Positions 3,760 to 53,007 of a stretch of 64,000 nucleotides of DNA are shown here, piece after piece. This stretch comes from Pedobacter deserti (lineage in GTDB: Bacteria > Bacteroidota > Bacteroidia > Sphingobacteriales > Sphingobacteriaceae). The notes beneath the pieces were generated by a model. It did no database searches and had not been told where the DNA came from. It worked only from the letters and a program-made list of their open reading frames with translations. The stretch lies in contig NZ_JAFMZQ010000001.1 of assembly GCF_024436415.1 (NCBI RefSeq), positions 1,178,001-1,242,000 on the forward strand, written 5' to 3'. Position 1 is the first letter of the stretch. Each line of letters begins with the position of its first letter. Both the position numbers and the translations under genes were made by a program.

Positions 3760-4193
3760 GAAATTTTATTTACCCTGGCCGCGTGCCGGCCTCCCTCAAA
3801 GGGTGTGTTTATAAATGTCGTGGTCATTTGCCTGGCAAGATCAAGAGAGACAAATCTGGCCGGAATACAAAGGACGTTGGCATCATTATGCTGTCGTGCA
3901 AGGGCGGCCAGTTCGTTCAGCCAGCAAATCGCCGCACGTATCTGCTGGTGTTTATTTGCGCTGATTGCCACACCATTTGCGCTGCCGCAGATCAGGATGC
4001 CAAGCGTATACGCCTTGGATTCCACTGCTGAAGCAACCGGGTGGGCGAAATCCGGATAATCCACAGAATCCAGTGAATGGGTGCCGAAGTCTTTCAGCTC
4101 ATAAGCGCTTAAAAATTCCTTCAGGGCTTCTTTGTATTCAAAGCCGGCGTGGTCTGCGCCGATGGCTATTTTAATTTTCGTATTATCAGACAT
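3753..4193 (-). CDS. rpiB: Ribose 5-phosphate isomerase B
   Basis: The 146-aa protein matches RpiB/LacAB in length and motifs: IGADHAGF at the N terminus (Asp14, His15), the catalytic-cysteine loop ICGSANGVAISANK (Cys69), and HNDANVLCIPARF downstream. It should interconvert ribose 5-phosphate and ribulose 5-phosphate in the pentose phosphate pathway, in the cytoplasm. The gene lies 33 bp downstream of tatC and overlaps the start of the M28 peptidase gene, so these are probably co-transcribed. The related allose-6-phosphate isomerase activity cannot be excluded from sequence alone. Confidence 0.93.
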   Translation of the reverse strand: MSDNTKIKIAIGADHAGFEYKEALKEFLSAYELKDFGTHSLDSVDYPDFAHPVASAVESKAYTLGILICGSANGVAISANKHQQIRAAICWLNELAALARQHNDANVLCIPARFVSLDLARQMTTTFINTPFEGGRHAARVNKISC

Positions 4194-37829: not shown

Positions 37830-37831
37830 CT

Positions 37832-37868
37832 TAAGGAAATAACATGTCATGGTTGTTTCCTTTTTTTA
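37832..37868 (+). terminator. Terminator after tRNA-Glu copy 2
   Basis: AAGGAAATAAC pairs imperfectly with GTTGTTTCCTT across a short loop, followed by seven or more T. It lies 3 bp after the tRNA. Confidence 0.7.
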
Positions 37869-38150
37869 TACGCTTAAAACCTATTGGCCACTGCCGCGCT
37901 GTGATTAAGTCAAATAATTCTCAATAATCCTGAATCTACGATTGTCGTTACTGTGTTTTAGCTTGCTTACAATTCCCATTATTTCATAGGCATGTAGGTG
38001 TTATGGCTAAATCTTATCCATTTGACGCACAAATAGTATTTTTCAATGGCCTCTTAATGATTTGCTACTGAACTCTTCCATCATTGCCGATTGAAATTCT
38101 TTGCAGAAAATCTCTCAAAACACATCTATGAACAGATTATTACACTCTCA
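37869..38150. other. AT-rich gap at the left edge of the island
   Basis: About 280 bp between the tRNA-Glu terminator and the first candidate frame. I see no gene, no RNA structure and no clear direct repeat of the tRNA 3' end. Composition is AT-rich, as in the island that follows. Confidence 0.5.
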
Positions 38151-38336
38151 ATGTTTTCAAAAGGCGATCTTCCCGTCTCTGAGTGGGTAGCCTTTTCTTC
38201 GAATGAAAGGTACTCTACTTCAAATTTCGGTCTGATCCTTAAGGAGATCTGTGATCAGAGCAATAAAGCGATCTTTATTATATTTATCATTCCTTTTTTT
38301 ATCTTGTTGGAAATTAATGCGCTACAAGCCACCTGA
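38151..38336 (+). CDS. Possible small membrane protein coupled to helicase gene
   Basis: A 61-aa frame from ATG at 38151 (or 81 aa from TTG at 38091) ends in TGA at 38334-38336, sharing its last base with the helicase ATG (TGATG). The C-terminal part has one hydrophobic segment (AIFIIFIIPFFILLEI). Stop-start overlap hints at translational coupling, but the composition is not convincing and no family is recognised. Confidence 0.3.
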   Translation: MFSKGDLPVSEWVAFSSNERYSTSNFGLILKEICDQSNKAIFIIFIIPFFILLEINALQAT

Positions 38337-41300
38337 TGACAAGACCATACTTCAATTACACAATAGAACAACTGGAAAAGGAGTTTTCTAATAAATCGAA
38401 TGATCATGCGCTGGTGAAGGGCTTATTGATCGAACTTAATCATCGGAATACACTAAGAGCGAAAAAATTGGTGGCTCTGATTATGGATCAGGAGGAAAAG
38501 CAAGTTGCGGAAAAAGCGACAACATTAGAGTCGTTATCCCAAAGTAATATGGATCCAATTACATCAATAAAGGAAAACCTTGAACCTGCCAAAGTTAGTA
38601 AAGAAACGAGCCAAAATATTTTATCTGCATGGACCTGCCTAGAGGTGTTATCACCACAAACTTTCACTGAACCTAAGGACCTGGCCCAAAACGGAGATCC
38701 TCAGCTTATTTTATCGTTCCGAAGTGGAAAAGCTCCCTGGGAAGGGCCGGGTGGAATCTCAAAGCCCAACTATCAGTTATTTTACAATATCGTCATCGGT
38801 ACAATAAAAGTTGACGAATCTTTTAAACTGCTTTTGAAAGTATATAATGATACCAGTGAGGAAAAGGCGACGAGAAAAGGAGAGGCGATCCTGGCGTCGG
38901 TTCTGGTCAACAACAAGGGTTTCATGGTTGAACCTCTATCGGTTTCCATATCCAGCTTTGCCTGGGCACTCGCGTATGCAATTGACGGACAACTGCCCAA
39001 ACTTGATAATTGGTCCAATATTGAGCAGAAATTGCATGAAGAGCTAGATAGCATTCTAAGGCGAAAAGATGAAAATGGAGAGCCGATTCCTCTAGACCTT
39101 AATATCATTGACAAAGGATACAAGTGGCTGATAAAGAGACTGAGCATACCGCAAGATTTAGCCAGGCAAAATCAATTTGCGATTAAATACTATCATTACT
39201 ATAAGAGCGGAGGCTCACCTGAAGGGCTGTTGTTGAATAGTTTTTATTTAAATGATCTGGCTACAGCAAAAAAGCTTGCCCAGAAAAAAAGTACAACAGC
39301 CAATTTAAAACGGTACCTGGGCGCCACCAGTCCAGAGCACTATTATAATCTTTTGGAAGATAATACAGCTCTTGAAAAATTATTAGCACCAATAAATATG
39401 CCTCCTGCAAGGTGGCCGGGAAAAGGCCTGCATCCTTTAGTCTTGCTTCAACAGGCAGCAGTTAACCTTACTTTCATGAGTCTGGAAAATAATGGCATTT
39501 TACCTGTAAACGGTCCTCCGGGAACAGGAAAGACTACACTATTGCGGGACATTGTTGCAGGGGTTATCACCCAACGTGCAGAAGCTATGTGCAGTTTCCA
39601 TGATCCCAAACAAGCATTTCATACTACGGGGCAGAAAATTAATATTGGACAGGCCTGGCTTCATTTCTATGAACTCGACAGTAAGCTCAAAGGTTATGAA
39701 ATGCTCATTGCATCGTCAAACAATAAAGCTGTTGAAAATGTAAGTGCAGAACTTCCCACCCTTGAGGCGGTGAGCAACGAATATCCGGAGCTACGTTATT
39801 TTAAAAGCATGTCTGATAGACTCCATAAAAAGGAAACCTGGGGAATTGTTGCGGCTGTGTTAGGAAATGCAAAGAATAAAAATGTGTTCCAGCAAACTTT
39901 TTGGTGGGATAAAGATTTTGGATTACGTACTTACCTCGCTGAAGCATCAGGAACGCCTCAATGGATAGAAGTAACGGATCCGAAAACGGGAGAGGTCAAA
40001 CATGAACGCCCTAAGATTGTAACAGAAGAACAAGCACCTTCAAATCCTGAGAGTGCGCTTATGAAATGGAAGTTGCTGCGCCAGGAACATTTATCGCTCC
40101 TTGAAGAGAGTAAAATAAAGCTTAAAGAACTGGAGAAAACCAGAGCGCTCGTTATTTCATTAGAAGCATTTAAAATTAAGGCGGGTAAACTCAAAGCGGC
40201 TATATCTGTTTTTTCTCTTGAATATGAAAATGCTCAAAAAAAATATGGCCCTATTGTAAAAGATTTAGCCTATGCTAAAATAGAGCAACAGCAGATAGAA
40301 ACCAGAAAAGCTGTCCATAGGCAATCAAGACCTGGCTTTTTTTCCAGGTTGCTCCGGTCGGCTGAGTTTTTACGATGGAAAGCCGGAGATTTAGCCTTAT
40401 TAAATGAACTTTCCGCCATACTCACTAAAATCCAAAATCTGACAAAGCAAGAGGCTGAGCAGTCAAAAAATGTAAGTGAAAGCTTATCCAAAATGCAGGC
40501 AGCTGAGAAAGATTTAGGAATAGAAACAAACAACATAAATTCGACCCAAGAAAAATTAGAAGAGGCCAGTAAAAAAATTGGCAAGCATCTTCTTGGAGAA
40601 ACTTTCTGGAGTCAAACCAGGGAAGAAATACATTTAATCTCGCCATGGTGTAATGACGAGGTGCAGCGAATAAGAGATAAGATTTTTATTTCAGCAATAG
40701 CTGTACACAAGGCTTTTATCGATGCGTCAGCACAAAAAATCAGGCATAATTTATCACTTATGATGATGGTGCTTTCGGGTAAGAAAATGCCGGATAAGGA
40801 AAAGGAAGCGCTTGTCCCAGATCTTTGGTCTTCGCTATTCCTCATTGTTCCTAGTATTTCCACCACATTTGCATCCATTGAACGAATGCTAGGCAAGATA
40901 CCGCCCGAAAGTCTTGGATGGCTATTAATCGATGAGGCAGGCCAGGCAGTGCCACAGGCAGCAGTAGGTGCAATCATGAGAAGCAAAAGAGCAGTAGTAG
41001 TAGGCGACCCCATCCAGATCGAGCCGGTAGTCATCCTCCCCGAAATACTGACTAAAAGTATTTGCCAATATTTCAAAGTAGACGCCGACCGCTTTAATGC
41101 ACCGGATGCGTCTGTCCAGACCCTCGCAGATGCTACCTCTAAGTACATCGCAGAATTTGATGGAAATGATGGAACCAGGAAAGTAGGGATTCCATTGCTC
41201 GTTCACAGGCGTTGTACAGAACCAATGTTTACCATATCGAACAGTATTGCCTACAGCGGAAAGATGGTACAGGCTAAACAAAAGGGAGAGTCTAAAATAA

Positions 41301-41788
41301 GGGATCTCATAGGAACTTCTCAATGGTTTGATGTAAAAGGACGATCGCTCGATAAATGGAGCCAGAAAGAAGGTGAATTGGTACTACAATTACTCCAGAA
41401 AATAAAGGAAGGAGGAATCAATCCGAATCTTTATATCATTAGTCCGTTCCTGATCGTGGCAGAAAATCTTAGAAAGCTCATTGTTAATAGTGGAATATTA
41501 GATGGTTGGGTGGAAAACCCATATCTATGGCCGAATGAGCGAATAGGAACAGTCCATACCGTTCAGGGCAGAGAAGCCGAAGCAGTTATATTCGTACTTG
41601 GAGCACCATCTCCCGAGCAAATAGGGGCAAGAAAATGGGCCGGAAACAAGCCCAATATCCTTAACGTAGCAGTTACACGGGCAAAAGAAGTTATTTACGT
41701 TGTAGGAGATAAAACACTGTGGAATACTGCAGGTATATTTAGCGAATTATCCGCTAATGTTGGTGTTTCTTGGACACAAACCCACTGA
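38336..41788 (+). CDS. Large SF1 (UPF1/DNA2-like) helicase
   Basis: A 1150-aa helicase. Visible: N-terminal YTIEQLEKEF/ELNHR module (1-50) seen in other bacterial helicases of this class; Walker A GPPGTGKT (about 393-400); a long charged coiled-coil insertion (about 600-790); Walker B LLIDEAGQAVPQA (about 864-876); motif III VVGDPIQIEPVV; motif V IGTVHTVQGREAEAV; motif VI NVAVTRAKE (about 1110-1118). This is the SF1B UPF1/DNA2 type acting on DNA or RNA with 5'-3' polarity. No nuclease domain is recognisable. It stands alone at the left of the defence island, so an anti-phage or plasmid role is inferred from context only. Confidence 0.85.
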   Translation: MTRPYFNYTIEQLEKEFSNKSNDHALVKGLLIELNHRNTLRAKKLVALIMDQEEKQVAEKATTLESLSQSNMDPITSIKENLEPAKVSKETSQNILSAWTCLEVLSPQTFTEPKDLAQNGDPQLILSFRSGKAPWEGPGGISKPNYQLFYNIVIGTIKVDESFKLLLKVYNDTSEEKATRKGEAILASVLVNNKGFMVEPLSVSISSFAWALAYAIDGQLPKLDNWSNIEQKLHEELDSILRRKDENGEPIPLDLNIIDKGYKWLIKRLSIPQDLARQNQFAIKYYHYYKSGGSPEGLLLNSFYLNDLATAKKLAQKKSTTANLKRYLGATSPEHYYNLLEDNTALEKLLAPINMPPARWPGKGLHPLVLLQQAAVNLTFMSLENNGILPVNGPPGTGKTTLLRDIVAGVITQRAEAMCSFHDPKQAFHTTGQKINIGQAWLHFYELDSKLKGYEMLIASSNNKAVENVSAELPTLEAVSNEYPELRYFKSMSDRLHKKETWGIVAAVLGNAKNKNVFQQTFWWDKDFGLRTYLAEASGTPQWIEVTDPKTGEVKHERPKIVTEEQAPSNPESALMKWKLLRQEHLSLLEESKIKLKELEKTRALVISLEAFKIKAGKLKAAISVFSLEYENAQKKYGPIVKDLAYAKIEQQQIETRKAVHRQSRPGFFSRLLRSAEFLRWKAGDLALLNELSAILTKIQNLTKQEAEQSKNVSESLSKMQAAEKDLGIETNNINSTQEKLEEASKKIGKHLLGETFWSQTREEIHLISPWCNDEVQRIRDKIFISAIAVHKAFIDASAQKIRHNLSLMMMVLSGKKMPDKEKEALVPDLWSSLFLIVPSISTTFASIERMLGKIPPESLGWLLIDEAGQAVPQAAVGAIMRSKRAVVVGDPIQIEPVVILPEILTKSICQYFKVDADRFNAPDASVQTLADATSKYIAEFDGNDGTRKVGIPLLVHRRCTEPMFTISNSIAYSGKMVQAKQKGESKIRDLIGTSQWFDVKGRSLDKWSQKEGELVLQLLQKIKEGGINPNLYIISPFLIVAENLRKLIVNSGILDGWVENPYLWPNERIGTVHTVQGREAEAVIFVLGAPSPEQIGARKWAGNKPNILNVAVTRAKEVIYVVGDKTLWNTAGIFSELSANVGVSWTQTH

Positions 41789-42071
41789 GATAAAATCTTG
41801 GTACGTAACGTTGATTCCTTACCATTTCGATTCAATTCAATCAACAAGGGTTGCTAATCAACGCTTGTGCTTAACAATAAGATTATACATCTTTTAATGG
41901 CATCTGAATCATAGTGACATGTTCAAAAAGCTGTCGTTTTACTAATGCTAGGCCCCATGCAATATAACAAGGATAACAATTCCTTGGAAACATATATTTA
42001 TAGAGACTACTATGGAAGTTTTTACTGCTTATTACTCACGTTTTCGGGTTGTCAACATTGTACTTTGAATT

Positions 42072-42950
42072 TCAAGCCAAGCATTCAACAATTCCAATAT
42101 GCTCTAATAGATCACTGGTTAATTTTGAGAGTGGTCGTCGTTCATTACTCGCTCTGTCTATATGATTTCCAAAAATTAAACGTTGAATTTCATTTTTGCT
42201 TTTGCCCATTTTAGAAAAATTCTCGGTTAAGCCTTGGTAATAGTCCTCATTGTAAGAGTAAGCTTTGATAATGATCTCTTCAGCATAGTCTAAGTGTTGC
42301 TCATACAACTCTTGTAAAGCAAATGTATGTATACTGTTATTGCATCTTGCTTTAAAATGTTCGTCACATTCAGTTATTGTTTCAAGTTGAATTTCGAGTT
42401 CTTTTCTATTGATCATAAAATCCACATGATTTGTCTTAAAGTAACATTTGCTCTCGAATCCTTCGTCGTAGGGGTATAGAAGCTCTTCTGCCGTGTCCGA
42501 TTTAATGTGATTACAGGTCGGACAACATGGAATGAGGTTGTAAAACGATAAGGCAAAGTGCGGGTGTTTAGATTTTGATAAGAAATGGTCAAACTGTGGC
42601 CTGATTTTCTTTTTCTTGTCAATCGTGAAGGTATATTGTCTGTTGCAATAAGGACAGGTATTTACATTTAACTCTTTAGCTAACCAGTTGCCTATTTCCA
42701 TGCACATTCTTTTGTATTGGTTGTCCATGTATGCGCGAAATGAATGGAAGTCTGCCTTATGAAGAGCATAGAGGCTTAGGAATTTTTGATTAATCTGGTC
42801 CGTTGCTGCTGGTTTCACCAATATGATCTCATCAAGATGATCTACATAATAAGTGGCTATAGGATTTGTTTTTCTAAACCTCCGGCTTTTTATGCTGTTC
42901 AGATACTGTAGTGCAATATCTTCAATATTCTTACGGTTGATCTTAATCAT
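42072..42950 (-). CDS. HNH endonuclease, Septu PtuB-like
   Basis: The 292-aa protein has a zinc-ribbon HNH nuclease: CPYC (Cys99, Cys102), QFDHFLSKSKHP with His122, FYNLIPCCPTCNHIKS with Asn138, Cys143, Cys146 and His148. Its ATG overlaps the end of the ATPase gene by 8 bp, so the two are translationally coupled. An AAA-ATPase followed by an HNH nuclease is the arrangement of the Septu anti-phage system (PtuA-PtuB); the same pair is also recruited by some retrons, but no reverse transcriptase is present. Sequence is intact. Confidence 0.8.
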   Translation of the reverse strand: MIKINRKNIEDIALQYLNSIKSRRFRKTNPIATYYVDHLDEIILVKPAATDQINQKFLSLYALHKADFHSFRAYMDNQYKRMCMEIGNWLAKELNVNTCPYCNRQYTFTIDKKKKIRPQFDHFLSKSKHPHFALSFYNLIPCCPTCNHIKSDTAEELLYPYDEGFESKCYFKTNHVDFMINRKELEIQLETITECDEHFKARCNNSIHTFALQELYEQHLDYAEEIIIKAYSYNEDYYQGLTENFSKMGKSKNEIQRLIFGNHIDRASNERRPLSKLTSDLLEHIGIVECLA

Positions 42951-44715
42951 TTAATCTATCTTTAAGGATTCTTATTTCTTTTTCCAGTTCAGCTATTCTT
43001 CTGTTCACTTCTTCGGGAACCCCTTCCCTTTGCTTGTACAGTTTCATAAGTTCATCACGGATAATTGGTTCACCGATCATTTGGATTTCCTTCAATATTG
43101 TCGGCCTGATCGCTTCAGCATTTTCGAGTTCATCGAATAGTTGATTGATCTTCTTTTTTGCAAATTCACCGATTGGAAGTCCGTCAATGAAAAAACTGTT
43201 CCTGTATAATGTGTGTATGTTTGCGCCAAAAGTATTGTCCCGGCTGATCGAGTTCACGACCCTACAGGTCCCATTGATCTCATTTTTATCCAGGAAAATG
43301 ATGTTGTCTTTTGGGAAATCAGAAATAATTATCGGAGAATGGGAGGCTAGTATGATCTGGAAAGTGTGATATGGAGTAGTCTTATTCAGGAAATCCAGCA
43401 AATTACTCAAAAACAATCTTTGCCACTCGGGATGAAAGGAATTTTCAGGTTCGTCAAGCAGTAGGATGATATTCTTATAGGTTTGGGGTGGTCTCTGCAC
43501 GTTCTTTTCTTGGCCGTGGTCAATAATGACTTCATTGATGGAGGCATAAATACGAGATAGTAAATTGAGATATTCCAGCTCTCCAGCAGACAATCCGTGC
43601 CATCCTATTGTTAAATCACTAGCTGCTAAGCCTCTATGGTCTAGTGAACTAGGGTTTGAAAAAACGTCTCCCTTGAAATAGTAACGATATAGACCAATAC
43701 GCAGGTTAAAAGATAGGTCTACTGTTTTGACGCCAAAAGTCCAGCTATAATCTGACCTCATTCCCATATTGTCAGGGTATTTGGTGAATAGAATTTTACC
43801 TGTTTCGTTCAAGCTGATCAGTTCGCTATACAGTTCTCCAGCATAGCTTTTTTTGATAAACTCCTCAACCGTGAGATCTTCTGGTACAATCTCCAAATCC
43901 GATGCGTTCTTTGGATCATTAAAATAGGCGTATAAAAATCTATTGGTGAAATGTTCGATAAAATCCATTTCGGGTAATGGCTTATCGATAAACAGTTTGT
44001 CATATACAGGATTGTCAATCTTTAGCTTGTTTGCACCTTTCTTAAACGTTATATTCAGGGCTTTTGGCAAGCTGATGCCCTTAAAATACGTAGCATTCGA
44101 AGAAGTGATCAATTCAATTTGTCTGAAAGTATCATCAATCATCAACCTCTCTATATCTGAAGAAGTGGCCTCTGGAAACTTCATTACTTTCCTATCTTCC
44201 CCGTATTTTCTCAGCAAGCCTCCGGTAGAAATGTCTTCAGATGTAATGCCTCCACCAAGGTCAAAAAGAATATTCTTTTCGTAGTGTGTTGAATAGTGCA
44301 GGAATTTTGTACTGACATCCTTCCTAAAATTGTTCAAGGGATACTGCACGTAATGCTTGTTGCGAAAGTTGTAGTTGCTGGCTATATCATTTCTATTTAT
44401 GTACAAATATCCATTTCGCCGATAAATATGAATCAACTTCATTCTAGGTAGGTTACTTAGTCCAGATGAGCTGGTATAATACCTGAAGATAAATTCTAAC
44501 AAGTTGCTTTTTCCAGCCCCATTTTTCCCGATGATCGCAGTGATGTTGTAGATGTTGTTGGCTTCCCAAAAATTCGGTAGATGTGCCTCATTCTTATTTA
44601 CGTTGATATAATTTTTGTTTTGGTCATAGGATATTCGAAACTCGGGAGAAAAGTTGAATTCACAGTCTTTTATGTTCTTTCCATCGTCTCCAATGTATAA
44701 GTAAATTATTTCCAT
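42943..44715 (-). CDS. AAA/ABC-type ATPase, Septu PtuA-like
   Basis: The 590-aa protein is an SMC/OLD-like ATPase: Walker A IIGKNGAGKS (Lys69, Ser70), ABC signature GLSAGELEYLNLL, Walker B ILLLDEPENSFHPEWQ and the H-loop ILASHSP. The C terminus (about 540-590) is charged and coiled. This set matches PtuA, which forms oligomers that hold the HNH subunit PtuB and are thought to respond to NTP levels during phage infection. The partner HNH gene follows with an 8-bp overlap. Subtype not determined. Confidence 0.8.
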   Translation of the reverse strand: MEIIYLYIGDDGKNIKDCEFNFSPEFRISYDQNKNYINVNKNEAHLPNFWEANNIYNITAIIGKNGAGKSNLLEFIFRYYTSSSGLSNLPRMKLIHIYRRNGYLYINRNDIASNYNFRNKHYVQYPLNNFRKDVSTKFLHYSTHYEKNILFDLGGGITSEDISTGGLLRKYGEDRKVMKFPEATSSDIERLMIDDTFRQIELITSSNATYFKGISLPKALNITFKKGANKLKIDNPVYDKLFIDKPLPEMDFIEHFTNRFLYAYFNDPKNASDLEIVPEDLTVEEFIKKSYAGELYSELISLNETGKILFTKYPDNMGMRSDYSWTFGVKTVDLSFNLRIGLYRYYFKGDVFSNPSSLDHRGLAASDLTIGWHGLSAGELEYLNLLSRIYASINEVIIDHGQEKNVQRPPQTYKNIILLLDEPENSFHPEWQRLFLSNLLDFLNKTTPYHTFQIILASHSPIIISDFPKDNIIFLDKNEINGTCRVVNSISRDNTFGANIHTLYRNSFFIDGLPIGEFAKKKINQLFDELENAEAIRPTILKEIQMIGEPIIRDELMKLYKQREGVPEEVNRRIAELEKEIRILKDRLND

Positions 44716-45000
44716 ATTGCATTCTGAAAATTAGCCGGTCTCCTATTGATGACCACCAGCTTTTGAGTCTATTTACGCTTAAAGATACATTTCTTTAAAT
44801 GATATATACAGTATACGATTTATGGTCAAATCCTAAGTCTCGTTCTATTATTTGTCATCGATGGTATTTTTTAAGATTGACCAGGTGAATAGGCCGATGG
44901 TGAACACGGTCAGTGCTTTCCTTTTTCCAGTTGCGCCGCTTTTCCACTTCCTAGATAGGGTTTGCTGTCCGCCCGTTTCCTGCGGGAGAGCCAACATTAT
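44716..45000. other. AT-rich gap upstream of the PtuA-like gene
   Basis: Holds the presumed promoter of the PtuA/PtuB-like pair (reading left) but no box could be assigned with confidence. No gene visible. Confidence 0.4.
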
Positions 45001-45126
45001 AACTTCAATCCCCATGACACGCTGATCGAATCCTACGAAGAAAATAAAGCTATACGAGCTACTGATTGAGGTGGAAGAGGAGAAGTTGCTTATTTGGAGC
45101 GGCTTGTAAATAGCAGAAAAGATTGA
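45001..45126 (+). pseudogene. Decayed C-terminal remnant, probably a small helix-turn-helix regulator
   Basis: Frame-shifted stretches read in sequence as NFNPHDTLIESYEENKA, then LYELLIEVEEEKLL, then AYLERLVNSRKD and a stop. Joined across two frameshifts they form the kind of coiled C-terminal tail seen in small XRE-type regulators of Bacteroidota mobile elements. The N-terminal DNA-binding part is not recognisable. Identity is inference from this tail; the disruption itself is seen directly. Confidence 0.4.
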
Positions 45127-45346
45127 AAACAGTAGTGTTCTTATTGCGGTTTTTTTATTTAACTGTTAACAGCTAAACTAAGAAAGCCATACAGAATGGA
45201 CGACGGACCAAAAGACCCAGCAATATAAAGTAAGACTCTTAAAAGCAGCTATTTGTGTTGGAAAATTAAAATATTTGACGATCCTTGCATACAAAATATT
45301 ATTGCAGTTATTTTAAATTAGCTAACATTTTTTAAGACCACTAATT

Positions 45347-46138
45347 ATGATTATTGACCCGGAAAGCTCAAAAGAAATTGTCAATGAAGCAAAAGCTTTA
45401 GCTCCTGAAGTTTATAAAGATGTGGCAAAGCCAGCATTGCAAGAAGTCGGTAGTGTCGCTGGAAGGACTGTGAAAGCATTTTTAGCGCCTTTAAGGGGTT
45501 TGTTGTGGGGTTGGGAAAGAATTGAAGATTTTGTAGAAACTGAAGTAAAGAAAAGGTTAGACAAAATCCCAGAAGAAAAAAGGAAATCGCCTGAACCAGA
45601 AATTGCTGTTCCCCTTCTGCAGGCTTTAACTTATACCGCTCAAAATGAAACATTAAGAGAGATGTACGTTAACTTACTCGCGAACGCCATGAATGTAGAT
45701 AAAAATAACGTCGTTCATCCATCCTTTGTTGAAATTATTAAACAAATGAACTCATTGGACGCTAAAGTATTTGATGAATTAGCGAAAATTAATGCATATC
45801 AAAAAATTCTAAATCCTAGAATTACGATAAAAGGACAAGGGAAGTTCTTTACGGGTGCTACCCCAGAATGGTATGCAGGCTGGACAATTGAAGGCTATTC
45901 TGAATTTGATGTTTCTGCTAGTTTAGTGAGGTTGAGTAAATTTGGTTTAATAGAGTTAATGTTCGACAGAACAGCAGGTAAAGATGGCTACGATAGTATT
46001 AGAAGCACTCCTTTTTTACGTTCGATACTAAACAAATATCAGACTGGAAATGCAGATCTAGAATTGGAGATTGGAGGTACAGAAAGTATCGTGTACGTCA
46101 ATGAATATGGTATACAATTCAAAAATGCGTGCAAGTAA
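45347..46138 (+). CDS. Abi-alpha (DUF4393) family protein
   Basis: The 263-aa protein matches the Abi-alpha/DUF4393 pattern: an N-terminal helical region with APEVYKDVAKPALQEVG and a FLAPLRGLLWGWERIEDFVE amphipathic stretch, then EPEIAVPLLQALTYTAQNETLREMYVNLLANAMN (about residues 85-118), the family core. The family was named after abortive-infection genes; the mechanism is unknown. It stands alone on the plus strand between the decayed regulator and the IS21 remnant. Confidence 0.75.
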   Translation: MIIDPESSKEIVNEAKALAPEVYKDVAKPALQEVGSVAGRTVKAFLAPLRGLLWGWERIEDFVETEVKKRLDKIPEEKRKSPEPEIAVPLLQALTYTAQNETLREMYVNLLANAMNVDKNNVVHPSFVEIIKQMNSLDAKVFDELAKINAYQKILNPRITIKGQGKFFTGATPEWYAGWTIEGYSEFDVSASLVRLSKFGLIELMFDRTAGKDGYDSIRSTPFLRSILNKYQTGNADLELEIGGTESIVYVNEYGIQFKNACK

Positions 46139-46486
46139 AACCATTTGTTAATACATACTTGGCTAAGTGTTATCTAAACATAAGTTTTCCACTTCGCTTT
46201 TCTATCACACCAAGCTCCGTCGGGTTAGCCACCATTTAAACAAGTGAAAATTTCAGAAAATACTTGAAGGATTAAAAGATAAAAGTCAATTCCATTACTC
46301 TGAGGTTGGCAAGAAAGATTTGGAAACTATGAGTTTGCCCAGACCTCCATGAAAGATATCTCCGATATCATTTGGAGGAATCTCAAAGTCATATTACGTT
46401 GAAATGTGCTTCTTAACAAAATTAGGAGTGGTAAACTAATTAATATCGAAAAACAAAATCCAACGAACTTGGAAATTTGATTGGAT
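46139..46486. other. Non-coding gap before the IS21 remnant
   Basis: No gene is visible. Only an imperfect inverted repeat around 46347-46382 (CCTCCA...GGAGG with GATATC arms) stands out. Probably degraded island sequence. Confidence 0.4.
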
Positions 46487-47036
46487 ATTCCGGAGCATAT
46501 TGACCCTCAGTTCGGTTAGCCTTTTGAAGTACCTAAGTGCTTGTAAAGCTTTAATTCCGTGGATGCTGCCCCCTTTGATTTGACATACGTATACTATTCC
46601 GGAGCATACTAGCCCCAGGGCGCGGCTATTTTGGAGGTTGTTCCGGAGCAAGCTGAACCTCCTTCGATAATTGTATTGATTTAGGTTGCTTTGGTGATTT
46701 GTTCACTAAAGCATACTATGATGGCCGGAATAGCACGACCTATGAGCCAGATCAAACAATTATTACGGCTGCACCAGCAGCACAGCGGGGATCAAGACCA
46801 TTGCCCACGAAAACTGGGTATCAGCAAGAATACGGTAAAGAGTTACCTTTCCGAGCTATGCCAGATTAACTGGTCCATTCAGGAACTGTTATTATTGGGG
46901 GATCCTGTTTGGAGGCCCGTTTCCATGCCGGCAACCCGGCTTATAAAGATCCGCGCTATGACCACGTGGCGTCAAACTGGATTACTTTTGCTGAACAACT
47001 CAAGCTCACCAGGGTGACCTGGCTTTTGCTTGGCCC
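46487..47036 (+). mobile_element. IS21-family element remnant (left end plus truncated istA)
   Basis: Three repeats with core TTCCGGAGCA at 46487-46510, 46596-46618 and 46640-46662 are followed by the start of an IstA-type transposase. Multiple short terminal repeats that bind transposase are typical of IS21 ends. No istB, no right end and no target duplication are seen, so this is a dead fragment. Confidence 0.75.
46718..47036 (+). pseudogene. istA: istA transposase, frameshifted and truncated
   Basis: Starts MAGIARPMSQIKQLLRLHQQ and continues KLGISKNTVKSYLSELC, the N-terminal HTH of IstA. A shift before the LGISKNT segment and another after GDPV are needed; the second recovers LEARFHAGNPAYKDPRYDHV then a truncated FAEQLK segment. 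Only about 100 residues of a ~500-aa transposase remain. Confidence 0.8.
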
Positions 47037-47366
47037 ATAGAGGGAGGGTGCCAAAGACACCGTTACCCGAGAACCTGATGTCTGCCATGATCAGGTCCGC
47101 TATGAACCAGAACTCAAACGCGCGCTGGAAGGATCTTTCAATCAAAGGGAGGAAGTCAGAATGAACAAAGTTCACATCACACTCCCATCATTGTCGATGC
47201 GAGCGTTGCGGTCAAGTGATCCATGAAGCCCACACTATAACAGGTTCAAATCCCACACCTGACAGAGGCAGATTTTAGTATTGAAATAATATACTCTGTA
47301 AAGGCCGCCAAAATTTGGGGCGGCTCCTTAAGCAGGCATATGTGTTTATAATAACTAAAAGTGATT
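47037..47366. other. Non-coding debris between IS21 remnant and invertase
   Basis: No intact gene. Contains a T-arm-like GGTTCAAATCC near 47241 that does not extend to a full tRNA, and a GC-rich hairpin (AAAGGCCGCC...GGGGCGGCTCCTT, about 47299-47331) downstream of the invertase that may be its terminator. Confidence 0.4.
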
Positions 47367-47963
47367 CTAAGCCTGTTGTAATTCAATCCATTTCTTGACG
47401 GTGTGTCTATGAACCTTTAACTTTCTAGCTATGTCAATCTGTTTCGCACCCAAAGCAATCTGTTCCTTAATAAAATTTTTATGGATGGCCAGAATTGGAT
47501 TGCTCTTTTTGCTTCCTTTCGGACGTCCTAACTTTACACCTTGTGATTTTTTCCTGGCTAAGGCCTCCCGGATTCTTTGAGAAATTAATGAACGTTCAAT
47601 CTCCGCTGAAAGACCAAAAGCAAACGCAAGTACCTTGGAATTAATATTATCACCCAATTCGTACCCCTCTTTAATAGCATACACCCGTACCTGTTTCTCC
47701 ATGCATTGGTTTAATATGCTCATAATCTGCATGAGATTTCGCCCCATGCGCGATATTTCAGACACAATTAAGATATCGTCATCTTTAAGCTCATTTAATA
47801 ATTTACCAAAGGATCTAATCGAAAGGTCTTTTCTGGAACTAATAATTTCTTCCACCCACTTAGAAATATGGAAGTTTCTTTGCTGGGCAAATTTTAGAAT
47901 TTCAAATCGTTGGTTTTCAACTGTTTGTTTGTCTGTGCTTACTCTGAGATAGGCGTATACCAT
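47367..47963 (-). CDS. Serine site-specific recombinase (Mpi-like DNA invertase)
   Basis: About 198 aa from ATG at 47963. N-terminal resolvase/invertase domain with the catalytic serine in YLRVSTDKQ (Ser9), SRMGRNLMQIM, and AFGLSAEIERSLISQRIREAL, followed by GVKLGRPKGSKKS and a C-terminal HTH (QIDIARKLKVHRHTVKKWI). This is the small serine invertase type known from phase-variable Bacteroidota promoters. A longer frame to 48005 exists, but those 14 residues are antisense to the restriction cassette and inside the inverted repeat. The ATG is 22 bp from inverted repeat 1, so the enzyme is ideally placed to flip the adjacent segment. Confidence 0.9.
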   Translation of the reverse strand: MVYAYLRVSTDKQTVENQRFEILKFAQQRNFHISKWVEEIISSRKDLSIRSFGKLLNELKDDDILIVSEISRMGRNLMQIMSILNQCMEKQVRVYAIKEGYELGDNINSKVLAFAFGLSAEIERSLISQRIREALARKKSQGVKLGRPKGSKKSNPILAIHKNFIKEQIALGAKQIDIARKLKVHRHTVKKWIELQQA

Positions 47964-47985
47964 TTTTGGCTTTAATGTAGAAACA

Positions 47986-48006
47986 AAACACCAGTTTTTT
48001 ACCAAC
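47986..48006 (+). repeat. Inverted repeat 1 of the invertible segment
   Basis: Exact 21-bp repeat, reading K-H-Q-F-F-T-N in the plus-strand cassette frame. Its reverse complement is at 48663-48683. Flanking bases diverge, so identity stops abruptly. Confidence 0.85.
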
Positions 48007-48390
48007 CAAAAATGTTTTGTTATAACTGGTACTCAGTTAAGTTATTTAACTGCCTTTTTTAGTTCCAGACTATTTCGTTTTGCCTTTAAGGAATACTTTC
48101 CAGAACTTCTAGGAGATACCCGTGAATTGAGCAAAGTTTTTTTTGAAACTGTCGCAGTGAAGGAAATAGATAACGACACCAATCTTGCATTTGAAAATTG
48201 TTTGACAGAATTGGTTAAGGCGAAGTTGTCAGGTCTGCCAACCCTGTTAATTCAGCAATTAGTCGACAGAAAACTATTCGAGATTTATATGCTCACAGAC
48301 GAAGAGATTAAGCTAGTAAATTTGTCAGAAACAACAGGTAACGAGGAAGATTCTTCGATAATAGATATCTCAGAACTGGTTAAATCATAG
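48007..48390 (+). other. Silent alternative C-terminal cassette of the R-M gene
   Basis: Read in phase with repeat 1 it encodes 127 residues (QKCFVITGTQLSYLTAFFSS, then RLFRFAFKEYFPELLGDTRE and onward) and stops at 48388-48390. The first ~50 residues parallel the active cassette (YLTAFxxSxLFxFAFKxYFPELLGDTRE), but the DNA is clearly diverged and the last ~75 residues differ strongly. It lacks a start codon and promoter of its own, as expected for a silent exchange cassette rather than an independent gene. Confidence 0.75.
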
Positions 48391-51300
48391 TGCTCAAAAA
48401 TCAGTTTGTTTATTTCATTTTCTTCAACAATAGTTGATAGATTTTGGGCTTTCTGCTGTTCTATTGATATAACTTTTTGATCAAATATTTCTGTCTTAAT
48501 AGGAGGCTTGATGGTTATGGTTTCGAAAAAAATTTTACGTATTTCTCTGGTATCACCCAGCAATTCAGGAAAATAATCTTTGAAGGCGAATTTGAAAAGT
48601 TTAGAGTTTAGAAATGCTGTTAAGTAACCAGGTGTCGAACTACTGAGGATAAATGATTTGTCGTTGGTAAAAAACTGGTGTTTATCATATACAAACGGCA
48701 AGTATTTTGTCATGTTCGGATAGATTATCTTAGGTTTTAAAAAATCCTCGTAATATGCAATGCTATCCTGCGTCTCAAACCACTTATATGACCCGGACTT
48801 GCGGCCTTTCCATTTACCTAATCTTTCATTATAATTTTTGGGTTTAGGTTCAATACGTTCTCTGAACTGCATTAAATGTTCTTTGATACCAGGATATTGA
48901 TCAATATCGATTTTGAGGGCTGGGAACGTTCCGATTAACCATAGGTCATTCCATTCAGGGACGTATGCTTTAATGTCTTCTCCCCGAAGAAGAGGTTTGA
49001 TAAGCTCAGCACTTTTAGGATCTTTCATAATGATCTCCTCCTTTATCTTTGTAGGTACGATAAAGGCCTCATTACAGCCGGTAAGTATTCCCCGATTGAT
49101 TTTAATGTCCCACTCTTTCAGGGGTTTACCTTGTTCAACTATTTTCTTTATCAATTTATATTCGGCTTTTTGATAACAAACCCAACTTTTTTTGCCCGGG
49201 TTATCGATGTCCACAGAAAAGTAGTCAATATATTCTTCTAATATTGTATTCATATCAAACTTATCATTGACTCTACACATTTTTATCGATGTGGGCGGAG
49301 CGGCTTTCTCAAAAAACAACATATTAGTATAGGTCGTAGCAGATTCGAAAATTTGTTTCATCCCAAAATCAACTACAAGTGTAGGTCGGCATTTAGTAGC
49401 AAGGTATTCTCGCGTACAATCTCCATAATCAGTTCGCATCCATTTGTTACTTGTTATAAAAGCTAGGCGCCCACCTTCTTTAAGCAAGTTTAAGCCGTGC
49501 TCATAAAATAACTGGTAGATGTCACCTGTTTTTCCAAACGTCTTGAAATTTTGCTGTTCGAGTCCCTTCTTGATCTCTTCATTTAGTTTTTGCAGTTGGA
49601 TATATGGCGGGTTGCCGATAATTACGTCAAACCCTTCAAATTCACCGTTATTTTTAAGAACCTCCGGAAATTCAAACCGCCACTCGAAAGCGTTTTTGTA
49701 AATAGCATTGTTTTTTATATCCTCAACAATTTGGCTGAACTTTTTAAGTTTCGAAGTGAGTAACCCTATATTGTCGTTGTACTTTTTCTTTTCCTTAGCA
49801 TTTAGTTCAAAAATTCCTAGCTGAGCAGTGGTTTTATCTAGCTCGCTCTTAGCGTTGTACCAATTGGTGTAGTCCTTACTTGTCTTGTGTATTTCAGTCT
49901 TGAAATCTGCTTTTATGCTATTAATTATGCCTTGTAAGTCACGCTTTACTTCCCGACTTTTTTCATTTTTATATTGGTCAACGAAATCGCGATAGGTTTT
50001 TATGTCGTATTTAACACTTTTTAATGCTTTGGTTAAGTCTGCATCAAGTTTAAAACGGCTTAGTAAGCTATTGCCAGTTTTGATATTTATATCAATATTA
50101 GGCAATGTCTCCAATTGAGAAAATGAGGTCTCTTCTTTATAGTATGCATTTTTCAGTAATTCAATCCATAGACGTAAACGGCAAATTTTAACTGAGTTAG
50201 GATTGATATCTACACCAAAAAGGCAATTTTCTATGAGTAACTGCTTTTCATGAAAAAGAGTCTTCTGCAGGTGTTGGATGTCTTTAGAAACAGGTTTGCC
50301 GTCTTTAAGCTTATAGCCAAGCAGGTTGCCCTTTGGATCAGTAATGACAAGCTCATCATTAATTATATCAAACTCGTAATTACTGATGCTATTGCCTTCA
50401 TGGTCAGCAAGTATTCCTAACTCTGCTTTAATATGGATTATCTCGTTCAACGCAGAAACCAGAAAGTGCCCAGAACCAACAGCTGGGTCACAAATTTTAA
50501 TTGAGTTTATGATTTGATTGGCCTCTAATATTTCCACTGATTTGAATAGACGCCGAGTATAGTTGCGAAGATCCTTAAAGTCATCAAACAGCTTTTTTCC
50601 AACCCCTGCTAATGAGTCATTAAATTTTGCAACAATTGCTTCTCTAATGATTCGTTTACACATATACATGGTGATAAACGCAGGCGTAAAGATAGACCCG
50701 TCTTTATAACCATTGATCTTTTCAAACACAGTACCAAGTACTGAAGCACTAATTATAGTTTTATTTTCCTCTTGTACTGTATCATCTCCTTCACTTGCAA
50801 AATCATAAGCATCCAAAAATTGGAAAATATAATCCAATGTAGGAAGGGTACCCGCATCCTTTTTAGCCTCTTTTAGAACTGTTTGAGGAAAAAGTGGTAA
50901 TCGTTCAGCTTGGTCTAAGGCCTGGATTTTAACAGTTTGATCTTCAAGTTCACTTATGTCAAACAAAGAACTATTAAGGTAAGGGACAAATGCGTATTTA
51001 GTCTTTACATTTTCCGTCCGTTCTTCAACTGGTACAGCTAATACTTTATGGAACAGTTTATATAGTTCTTTAAAATTGGGAATCATCTGACTGTTAAGGA
51101 ACCTAAATCCCTCATCACCATAATGGTATGTTTGGAGTTGTCCTTCCAGTAACTTTAAAAATAAAATACGGTTAACCCAAGTAATACAGAGTTCAAGAGC
51201 AATAGTGAATGTTCGCGCCTCCAGGTCAGTACCATAACTAGCGAGGTCAGGAACGTGGTGTAACACATCTTCAGTCTTTAAAGCATCGATTGTTGCTTCT

Positions 51301-52166
51301 ATCAATGATGCATTGTGACGACCCTCCTTCTTTCTTCGGATAATTGCCTTGTTATTTTCTTTAGCCTCTTCTAGCCCGATTAAATGCAAAAGCTCTTTAT
51401 AGAACTTTTCATTAAGAGAGTTGCCGTCATTAGGCACGCCTACTTTTAATAAATATTGTGGTGATAGGACCCTGAACAATGCACTTAACTGCTTGTCATC
51501 ATCTTTTTTATTATTATTATTATTAATGATTTTCGTATATTCTCTGATATCAAAATAGACACAAGGAAGGTCAATTTCCAAGTTTGCGAGAATCTTACGG
51601 ATTTCTTCGTAAAAGAATGGGTTGTCCTTTCGGTCGTTTATATAAATGTCATATAATCTTTTAATCGCAGTATTGCGGTAAATGTATTTATCAAAGTAAT
51701 TGGCATCAATAATATACCATTCATATATATTGGTGATCACTAACTTTTTGAGCTGATTGTTTCCTGCACGGCTGCGTTCGTCTAGATAATATAAGATCAG
51801 CTCATGCATGGCTTTCTTGTTAAGGTTAATAGCCGTAATCATTTCATTGGTATTGTTCGGTCGTTTAGCCTCGATAATAACACCAACCTCGCTTACTGTA
51901 GACTTGCCGATATGCACAACCAGATCCTTCTTGTCTTTCGTATTAATTGCATGAGAATCGCGATAATATGTGTCACGTAAAAAATCGCGTATGTCATTTT
52001 TTAAATGCTCCTCACTCTCATCCTTTGGCCTGTTTTCTATTACACTAATCTTATCAAGCAACGCAGCTAAGTTTAGTTTGAAAATATCAATCTCACTTCT
52101 TAACGGTTTTTGCTTGACAAATGCCTTTAATGCTTTTTTAGGTGAATGGATTATCAGGTTTATCAT
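48285..52166 (-). CDS. Type IIG restriction-modification enzyme (Eco57I-like), current C-terminal version
   Basis: About 1293 aa from ATG at 52166 (a TTG six codons earlier is possible). N-terminal PD-(D/E)xK-type nuclease region with DLVV and VIIEAKRP (about 81-102); SAM-dependent N6-adenine methylase with DPAVGSGHFL (about 560-569) and NPPY (852-855); C-terminal target-recognition region from about 1000 with GILTGCNEAFIV, RGEDIKAY and LKPKIIYPN. Cutting and methylation in one polypeptide define type IIG. The last 125 residues after KHQFFTN lie inside the invertible segment. No separate methylase, specificity subunit or BREX gene is near. Low-GC composition suggests horizontal origin. Confidence 0.85.
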   Translation of the reverse strand: MINLIIHSPKKALKAFVKQKPLRSEIDIFKLNLAALLDKISVIENRPKDESEEHLKNDIRDFLRDTYYRDSHAINTKDKKDLVVHIGKSTVSEVGVIIEAKRPNNTNEMITAINLNKKAMHELILYYLDERSRAGNNQLKKLVITNIYEWYIIDANYFDKYIYRNTAIKRLYDIYINDRKDNPFFYEEIRKILANLEIDLPCVYFDIREYTKIINNNNNKKDDDKQLSALFRVLSPQYLLKVGVPNDGNSLNEKFYKELLHLIGLEEAKENNKAIIRRKKEGRHNASLIEATIDALKTEDVLHHVPDLASYGTDLEARTFTIALELCITWVNRILFLKLLEGQLQTYHYGDEGFRFLNSQMIPNFKELYKLFHKVLAVPVEERTENVKTKYAFVPYLNSSLFDISELEDQTVKIQALDQAERLPLFPQTVLKEAKKDAGTLPTLDYIFQFLDAYDFASEGDDTVQEENKTIISASVLGTVFEKINGYKDGSIFTPAFITMYMCKRIIREAIVAKFNDSLAGVGKKLFDDFKDLRNYTRRLFKSVEILEANQIINSIKICDPAVGSGHFLVSALNEIIHIKAELGILADHEGNSISNYEFDIINDELVITDPKGNLLGYKLKDGKPVSKDIQHLQKTLFHEKQLLIENCLFGVDINPNSVKICRLRLWIELLKNAYYKEETSFSQLETLPNIDINIKTGNSLLSRFKLDADLTKALKSVKYDIKTYRDFVDQYKNEKSREVKRDLQGIINSIKADFKTEIHKTSKDYTNWYNAKSELDKTTAQLGIFELNAKEKKKYNDNIGLLTSKLKKFSQIVEDIKNNAIYKNAFEWRFEFPEVLKNNGEFEGFDVIIGNPPYIQLQKLNEEIKKGLEQQNFKTFGKTGDIYQLFYEHGLNLLKEGGRLAFITSNKWMRTDYGDCTREYLATKCRPTLVVDFGMKQIFESATTYTNMLFFEKAAPPTSIKMCRVNDKFDMNTILEEYIDYFSVDIDNPGKKSWVCYQKAEYKLIKKIVEQGKPLKEWDIKINRGILTGCNEAFIVPTKIKEEIIMKDPKSAELIKPLLRGEDIKAYVPEWNDLWLIGTFPALKIDIDQYPGIKEHLMQFRERIEPKPKNYNERLGKWKGRKSGSYKWFETQDSIAYYEDFLKPKIIYPNMTKYLPFVYDKHQFFTNDKSFILSSSTPGYLTAFLNSKLFKFAFKDYFPELLGDTREIRKIFFETITIKPPIKTEIFDQKVISIEQQKAQNLSTIVEENEINKLIFEHYDLTSSEISIIEESSSLPVVSDKFTSLISSSVSI
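48663..48683 (-). repeat. Inverted repeat 2, inside the R-M gene
   Basis: Exact 21-bp reverse complement of 47986-48006, reading K-H-Q-F-F-T-N in the restriction-enzyme frame at codons about 1162-1168. Confidence 0.85.
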
Positions 52167-52184
52167 TGTCAGAATTGAGTACAA

Positions 52185-52772
52185 TTTGTTTATGGATCAA
52201 TAAAGATATTAATAATACCTACGTTTAGAAATTATCGTCAAGGCATCGGCAATACCGCATGCTCGTGGTATTTCGGGTATAGTTGTACGAATTCATTCAA
52301 CAGTTATCAATATTATAAGGCTCGTCGAATCAGAGAACCGTATGGAAACCTTCGGCCTAGGCTATCTCCTTTGTAACTCATTTGCTTGTTTACGATTCGA
52401 ACAGGAGGCCAATGTTACCTCTGCCAGCCCAGTAACAAGAAGTGTTTTAATCTCATTCGACATACTTTGGCCACAAAGATCAATTATCATAGAGTTGTGT
52501 CCAAAGCAACATAACCATTTTATAAAATAACAAGCCATCGAGCAAACGCGATATAAACGTGTAAGAGATGTCTGCAAAATCCCAAGAAGTTCAAATGCGA
52601 TAGTAAGGTTCCGCAAGGGCTAGACCTCCTACGCAAATCCTAACAGGGGCCTAGCTGATCACTAGTTGGACCGTATAATTGGAATCGAATATCGAATCCT
52701 AGTTAAGCCTTCAAGTGTAGTGGACGGCGACTGCCACACACACACACATTCCGGCTACCCCACGGTCCCCGT
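52185..52772. other. Non-coding right flank of the island
   Basis: Between the R-M gene start and the nested palindrome I see only short chance frames and a (CA)7 microsatellite at 52735-52748. No gene, tRNA fragment or att-like repeat was recognised. Confidence 0.4.
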
Positions 52773-52876
52773 GTTCGGTCATTCTTCGGGCTTAGACCGT
52801 ACTTTCTTCGGGAAAAGTACCCGGTTTCCCGAAGAAAGTACGTAGAAAGCCCTGATTAAGCCCGAATCACCCGAAC
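52773..52876. repeat. Three-tier nested palindrome
   Basis: Inner stem 18 bp (52798-52815 with 52825-52842, 9-nt loop), middle stem 10 bp (52785-52794 TTCGGGCTTA with 52857-52866 TAAGCCCGAA), outer stem 6 bp (52773-52778 GTTCGG with 52871-52876 CCGAAC). The nested pairing spans 104 bp. It could be a mobile-element end, a strong bidirectional terminator or a REP-like element at the right edge of the island. Confidence 0.7.
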
Positions 52877-53007
52877 AACAGGATCCTTGTTGAATGTATC
52901 AAAACCTTTACTTAGCCAGCAATCGAATCTGGTTTTCTCTTCATAGTTTTAAGTAGTAAACCAAATACTTAGCCGCTTTTCTGAAGCGATTGTTTTAAAA
53001 CACCGTT

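Follow-up and report, generated by a model that had tools for sequence, protein, structure and literature searches.

A candidate 698-bp invertible element predicted to exchange the recognition-domain end of a type IIG-like restriction-modification enzyme in Pedobacter deserti

Why would a restriction-modification (R-M) gene carry two alternative 3' ends, one in frame and the other lying inverted just beyond it? The question is raised by a 64,000-nucleotide stretch of the Pedobacter deserti genome (assembly GCF_024436415.1, contig NZ_JAFMZQ010000001.1, positions 1,178,001 to 1,242,000 of the forward strand), which we call the window and in whose coordinates all positions are given. Our answer, which we consider highly probable, is a two-state inversion switch: a 698-bp element inverts, likely via the adjacent Mpi-family recombinase, swapping the last 125-127 residues of a type IIG-like enzyme in frame and so changing the DNA sequence that it recognises. 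At the level of sequence, this answer is built on repeats that match exactly, on two alternative gene ends that are both in frame, on the presence of both states in relatives, and on the finding of repeats and recombinase together.

The element is bounded by a left inverted repeat next to the recombinase gene (47986..48006, + strand) and a right inverted repeat inside the R-M gene (48663..48683, - strand). The two are exact 21-bp reverse complements with no exact extension at either end, and the 656 bp between them bring the whole element to 698 bp. Both encode KHQFFTN, the right repeat as residues 1168-1174 of the R-M protein and the left repeat as the corresponding residues of the silent cassette. 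Cassette A (48285..48662, - strand, 125 residues) is in frame with the R-M gene at present, while cassette B (48007..48390, + strand, 127 residues) is the silent alternative C-terminus and is the in-frame form in the homologs P0002, P0004 and P0006 and in the related locus L004. The cassettes are homologous, 42-45% identical in local alignments, and their 3' ends overlap in antiparallel fashion over 106 bp (48285..48390). Read from the TTG at 52184, the R-M frame encodes 1299 residues now and 1301 after in-silico inversion. The first 1174 residues, ending in ...PFVYDKHQFFTN, are common to both forms, with the junction directly after KHQFFTN, and inversion, here and alike in relatives, is an in-frame replacement of one R-M gene end by another. 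The exact 21-mer occurs in two of 400 genomes of the order, the window's own and G297, once per strand in each, and a reversed-pattern control found none in the same 400 genomes. A promoter and terminator scan gave nothing above shuffled sequences.

The neighbouring gene (47367..47963, - strand) encodes a 198-residue serine recombinase of the Mpi family, a predicted invertase, which scores 296.2 bits with NF009949 (cut-off 272) and matches Pfam Resolvase. Its ATG at 47963 lies 22 bp from the left repeat, and the frame stays open into that repeat, giving 212 residues from a TTG at 48005. It is the sole match at E <= 1e-5 in its own genome (95% complete).

The R-M gene itself (48285..52184, - strand, in its present form) encodes 1299 residues from the TTG or 1293 from an ATG six codons later. 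The ATG is probably the true start, because the homolog database begins the protein there (P0001, 1293 residues). The best PADLOC model, REase_MTase_IIG, is a type IIG restriction-methyltransferase and is matched over nearly the full length (883.6 bits, residues 16-1279). The constant part, residues 1-1174 (48663..52184, - strand), comprises DUF7149 (14-253), DUF7814 (255-478), an MmeI plus Eco57I methyltransferase core (552-946) and, at its end, the beginning of the recognition domain. The core is of the gamma-type N6-adenine class with motifs I and IV present (DPAVGSGH and NPPY), and these motifs are conserved among 13 aligned homologs, as is a D...E-x-K pattern in DUF7149 (D87, E105 and K107); a fused nuclease is predicted in the chain. 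The C-terminal target-recognition domain belongs to the same chain, as seen from a TaqI_C match (1063-1217) and from matches to CamA and M.BseCI that span the domain, and the junction at residue 1174 splits this TaqI-like specificity domain. The protein is single-chain, unlike the type I layout with a separate HsdS beside HsdM and HsdR, and no HsdM, HsdR or HsdS is among the matches listed for six proteins examined from the genomic island described below. The initial annotation of this DNA had claimed exact 21-bp inverted repeats flanking 656 bp, two homologous and diverged C-terminal ends in opposite orientations, an in-frame swap of 125 or 127 residues after 1174 shared ones, an Mpi-like serine invertase 22 bp outside the first repeat, and a swap inside the target-recognition domain. 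All of this was borne out, by reverse-complement comparison, alignment, in-silico inversion, a score above the curated NF009949 cut-off, and the place of the junction within TaqI_C, respectively.

What the swap would do to recognition was gauged by mapping onto CamA of Clostridioides difficile, which is called an orphan methyltransferase in one published account (PMC8187626). On this mapping the junction lies at a base-reading loop; the junction and contact positions correspond to CamA S472/A473 and Y521. A flip swaps D1175 and R1216 of form A for Q1175 and S1216 of form B, and the CamA counterparts of both positions touch base pair 4 of the 6-bp site. Across 116 sequences, the pair at 1175 and 1216 is QS in 28, DR in 22, DQ in 17, NI in 11 and AK in 9. 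Of 323 positions ranked as covariation partners of 1175, 1216 comes first, in a ranking uncorrected for ancestry. Forms A and B differ at about 70 residues but at few base-contact-like positions. Since the counterparts of 1175 and 1216 both touch base pair 4, the two forms would share most of their motif and differ near that pair, two positions 5' of the methylated adenine. Structure models predict the same order of elements for state A (window) and for state B (G297).

The mechanism that we propose is that the adjacent Mpi-family recombinase would act on the 21-bp repeats and invert the 698-bp element, that flipping would continue in this organism, and that each inversion would exchange the last 125-127 residues of the enzyme in frame. 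One flip is predicted to retarget methylation and cutting together, because the nuclease and the methyltransferase share one recognition domain. The alternative that survives best is an on/off or activity switch, in which one cassette is active and the other is without restriction or any activity, and it draws on the finding that cassettes A and B of the window differ at only two of the five contact positions mapped there. We nevertheless consider it unlikely, given that both cassettes are full-length, are predicted to fold alike and are each in frame in several relatives, and that they vary at covarying, base-contact-like positions.

Both states are present among relatives. The homolog search gave at least 7993 homologs among 7996 scored candidates, and the best 120 were used. 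Apart from the window's own protein, the closest of these is P0002 (91% identity over 94% of the query), which ends in cassette B, and two proteins that are both 84% identical end differently, P0003 in A and P0004 in B. After KHQFFTN, P0001, P0003, P0005, P0007 and P0012 end in A, and P0002, P0004, P0006, P0008 and others in B; P0009 is without the motif. A tree was built from the first 960 residues and its tips were labelled by C-terminus. The set came from the first 45 of the 120 proteins, 22 of which have the motif; P0011, P0029 (no tail) and P0039 (104 versus 100 bits) were dropped, and in the 19 labelled homologs the A and B scores differ by about 22 bits or more. On this tree (5 A, 14 B) there are at least five state changes, the maximum possible for five A rows, and opposite states are seen in three sister pairs with good support (P0001 A/P0002 B, P0003 A/P0004 B and P0012 A/P0016 B). 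The metagenomic homolog P0029 has ...KHQFFTN as its very last residues, possibly because its contig stops at the repeat's inner edge.

Two relatives were found with both cassettes at this site: L004 (G297, a single 6.16-Mb contig), in which the shared part is 86% and the recombinase 89% identical, and L033 (a Flavobacterium sp. metagenome-assembled genome), in which these values are 68% and 83%. Both have the same 21-mer, the 656-bp spacing, both cassettes, an overlap of the same length (106 nucleotides) and the recombinase, in the orientation opposite to that of the window. Outside the site, about 46-53% of the codons for identical residues agree (window versus L004 and L033), and runs of seven identical residues have all seven codons identical in 2 of 182 (L033) and 5 of 483 (L004); the 21-bp site is identical in all three. 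By this codon comparison, the putative recombination site is kept as DNA, beyond its protein sequence. The initial annotation had named two outcomes that would speak against its reading, a single orientation in all reads of many populations and related strains, and repeats that differ in related genomes although the cassettes are conserved. Among the relatives examined neither was seen, with both orientations present and identical repeats in L004 and L033. The same data bear on a frozen relic, that is, an inverted spare C-terminus from an old duplication-inversion that no longer flips. The single orientation in the window's assembly agrees with a relic, but the repeats show no difference within or between diverged genomes despite changed synonymous sites around them, sister sequences are in opposite states, cassette B has an intact frame, and the 106-bp overlap is kept in three genomes. 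We therefore regard this alternative as very unlikely.

The joint occurrence of repeats and recombinase was examined across homologous loci. These were collected by family and phylum searches (30 each, 2 in common) and by a scan of named genomes (best 80 of 575), which gave 138 loci with an R-M match; 117 of them, including the window and one genome counted twice, have a stop codon and a match reaching residue 900. Inverted repeats of at least 17 bp between the R-M 3' end and downstream DNA are present in 20 of the 117 loci. In each of the 20, inverting the DNA between one or more of the repeat pairs yields a C-terminus that is in frame and similar to the resident one. These are 19 distinct loci, window included, as L015 and L099, whose contigs are equally long (652,577), look like one genome. 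An Mpi-like recombinase lies within 2.6 kb in all 20 loci with repeats and in none of the other 97, some of which have little downstream DNA. Where 1.5 kb or more of downstream DNA is available (64 loci), 11 have repeats and recombinase, 53 have neither and none has only one (Fisher 1.3e-12). As controls on the 117 loci, direct repeats were found in 5, upstream inverted repeats in 1 (a run of N) and mid-gene inverted repeats in 2 (partly palindromic). The five loci with direct repeats (L017, L072, L078, L085 and L106) have 22-39 bp repeated between the R-M 3' end and downstream DNA, as if spare C-termini were kept in the same orientation, with switching by deletion or conversion as a possibility. 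Some overlap of cassette ends on opposite strands is seen in 17 of the 19 loci with repeats.

Contig ends suggest that flipping takes place in relatives. The recombinase was sought in eight genomes whose R-M contig breaks off within the recognition domain or where that domain begins, and it was found in seven. In five (G039, G099, G194, G245 and G096) the R-M contig stops on the final base of a repeat that is shared with the recombinase side, and in G039, G099, G194 and G096 the recombinase-side contig stops on that base too. The shared repeat is only 17-18 bp in G099, G194, G245 and G096, which is too short to stop an assembler unless both orientations are present; this suggests, from the contig sequences, that reads of both orientations were present in the sequenced DNA of these four genomes. 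In the family tally, 12 intact loci and 7 broken ones (genome with recombinase and shared repeat) make 19 of the 44 loci examined. L034, L039, L045, L067, L170 and L171 also end here; by eye, L039, L067 and L170 do so in or at a site zone and the other three do not. Contig-end odds of 7 of 12 and 8 of 14, whose counts were picked by eye, are left aside as evidence. The least probable alternative, that homologous recombination or gene conversion acts on the repeats and the recombinase is incidental, suits the long identical stretches in some relatives (81, 62 and 260 bp), but we find it very unlikely in view of the 21-bp length, very short for RecA-type exchange, the perfect joint occurrence of repeat and recombinase in 64 loci, and the R-M contigs of four relatives, which stop precisely where the inner edge of a 17-18-bp repeat lies.

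Many relatives go beyond the single site of the window. We listed 42 repeats of at least 13 bp in the 19 loci with repeats, and 33 of them lie in four zones: S1 (about 981-992), S2 (about 1050-1070), S3 (1145-1155) and S4 (1167-1174), the last being the zone of the window, L004 and L033 and, in the window, that of the left repeat as well. Repeats in at least two of S1-S3 are present in 11 of the 19 loci, and in all three in L098 (Bacteroides oleiciplenus), L104 (Chryseobacterium sediminis) and L107; L008 and L043 are among the other loci with two or three repeat zones. On CamA the zones correspond to 293-301, 371-376, 443-452 and 466-472, between groups of base-contacting residues, and of the mapped contacts only S472 falls within a zone. 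In all 11 loci that swap positions 1031 and 1034, one cassette has Y..K there and its alternative has R..L. As a one-site inversion swaps everything downstream and two-site inversions only the stretch between, three sites would allow eight combinations, and combinatorial shuffling of the recognition domain is predicted for the multi-site loci. Extended to the phylum, this gives a Bacteroidota-wide module: a single Mpi-family invertase would shuffle the recognition domain of a one-chain restriction enzyme, using as many as three or four sites that are embedded in the coding sequence between groups of base-pair-reading residues, with up to eight restriction and methylation specificities per gene; the window would be the minimal form, toggling essentially one base pair via covarying Asp-Arg versus Gln-Ser. 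We offer this wider proposal tentatively, as slightly less likely than not to hold.

Several results weigh against these readings, for the window or for the relatives. With two of five contact positions differing, the change in specificity could be small or nil; the CamA mapping stands at about 20-22% identity, and 1175 ranks only fourth among the partners of 1216. The nuclease assignment rests on the DUF7149 match, the E-x-K motif and the PADLOC model. The mixed states on the tree could partly reflect tail exchange between strains. The assembly of the window's genome has one orientation in an unbroken 3.34-Mb contig, with no contig-end sign of flipping. Three of the eight broken-contig genomes misfit the contig-end pattern: in G366 and G276, with recombinase and shared repeats, the R-M contigs do not end at the repeat, and in G376 no recombinase was found. 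Moreover, the recombinase-side contig of G245 continues past the repeat, and the contig ends of G039 share 260 bp, enough to break an assembly without flipping, and prove nothing alone. Repeats of at least 17 bp were found in none of 14 further family loci, and in none of those with a stop codon and a match to residue 900 among 28 new phylum-sample loci. In L172 (G348:C70), one of the 14 family loci, an Mpi-like recombinase (3156-3785) lies 48 bp beyond an R-M frame that ends short of the recognition domain, with no repeats; this is possibly a decayed module. Finally, 9 of the 42 listed repeats lie outside the four zones.

The inversion principle itself is known. Inversion of type I specificity genes is well established, for example in SpnIII of Streptococcus pneumoniae, and a phase-variable type I R-M system of Bacteroides fragilis was reportedly described by Ben-Assa in 2020. 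The window locus resembles type I hsdS inversion: recombination at repeats would exchange inverted specificity segments of partial homology and so alter target recognition. It differs in that type I systems have a separate specificity subunit, whereas recognition, methylation and predicted cutting are here in one chain, and in that its recombinase is a serine recombinase of the Mpi family. Mpi of the B. fragilis capsule promoters belongs to the same family (NF009949). That enzyme is a master invertase of many promoter segments, whereas the window has one recombinase gene beside one coding-sequence element, with no second Mpi-like gene or further exact 21-mer found in the genome. PglX of bacteriophage exclusion (BREX) systems is a single-chain methyltransferase with a C-terminal recognition domain, and 3'-end inversion is known for it in lactobacilli. 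A BREX origin was rejected on score for the window's protein, which stays far below the PglX cut-offs (NF033452, 80.5 versus 500 bits; NF033455, 53.5 versus 900; NF033451, 53.3 versus 400). The protein also has no BREX genes among the neighbours examined and has a predicted fused restriction domain. CamA and M.BseCI are methyltransferases that are not known to carry a fused restriction part or an inversion cassette, whereas the window's protein has the former by prediction and the latter beside it.

The initial annotation knew of no described type IIG case with this layout, which is too strong. Milman, Yelin and Kishony are said to have named type II R-M genes in 2023 (Nucleic Acids Research) as a new inversion-targeted family, with long-read support. 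The window locus is probably an instance of this class of gene-altering programmed inversions that includes type II R-M genes. Our literature searches gave no type IIG inversion case with this layout among the matches listed, which is weak evidence of absence. What may be new here is the combination: the enzyme is single-chain, an Mpi-family recombinase gene lies beside it, and the site zones fall between base-reading loops. If the proposed switch is real, the cell redirects both its cutting and its self-protection in a single step, with one protein and without a separate specificity subunit, and populations gain a ready supply of alternative phage barriers and methylation patterns; this raises the question of survival while the genome is unmethylated at the new sites. 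The natural forms A and B offer a ready test case for the reading of DNA by type IIG enzymes, and the multi-site relatives suggest natural rules for chimeric recognition domains.

Near-identical records in the opposite orientation were also sought on mobile elements. A plasmid collection (E <= 1e-80) gave 12 records, all below 60% identity, and a phage collection none; four of the 12 plasmids were examined and have no inverted repeat above 13 bp between the R-M gene and downstream DNA. L141 (NZ_OY725960.1, Bacteroides finegoldii), a 15.5-kb circle, carries a related R-M gene, a recombinase-family gene and two site-specific integrases, with no inverted repeat above 12 bp between the R-M gene and downstream DNA.

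In the window, the switch is carried by a variable defence island of 15 kb (37832..52884) that is absent from the conspecific genome G785. Its members are an MkoC-like helicase protein (38336-41788), a PDC-M62A/B pair (42072-44715) and an Abi_alpha/PDC-S47 gene (45347-46138), followed by the invertible R-M unit. The match of G785 to the window (96-98% identity) stops at 37831 and resumes at 52885, and the 21-mer was not found in G785. In place of the island, this genome has about 3.4 kb of other DNA, with a putatively RtcB-like frame.

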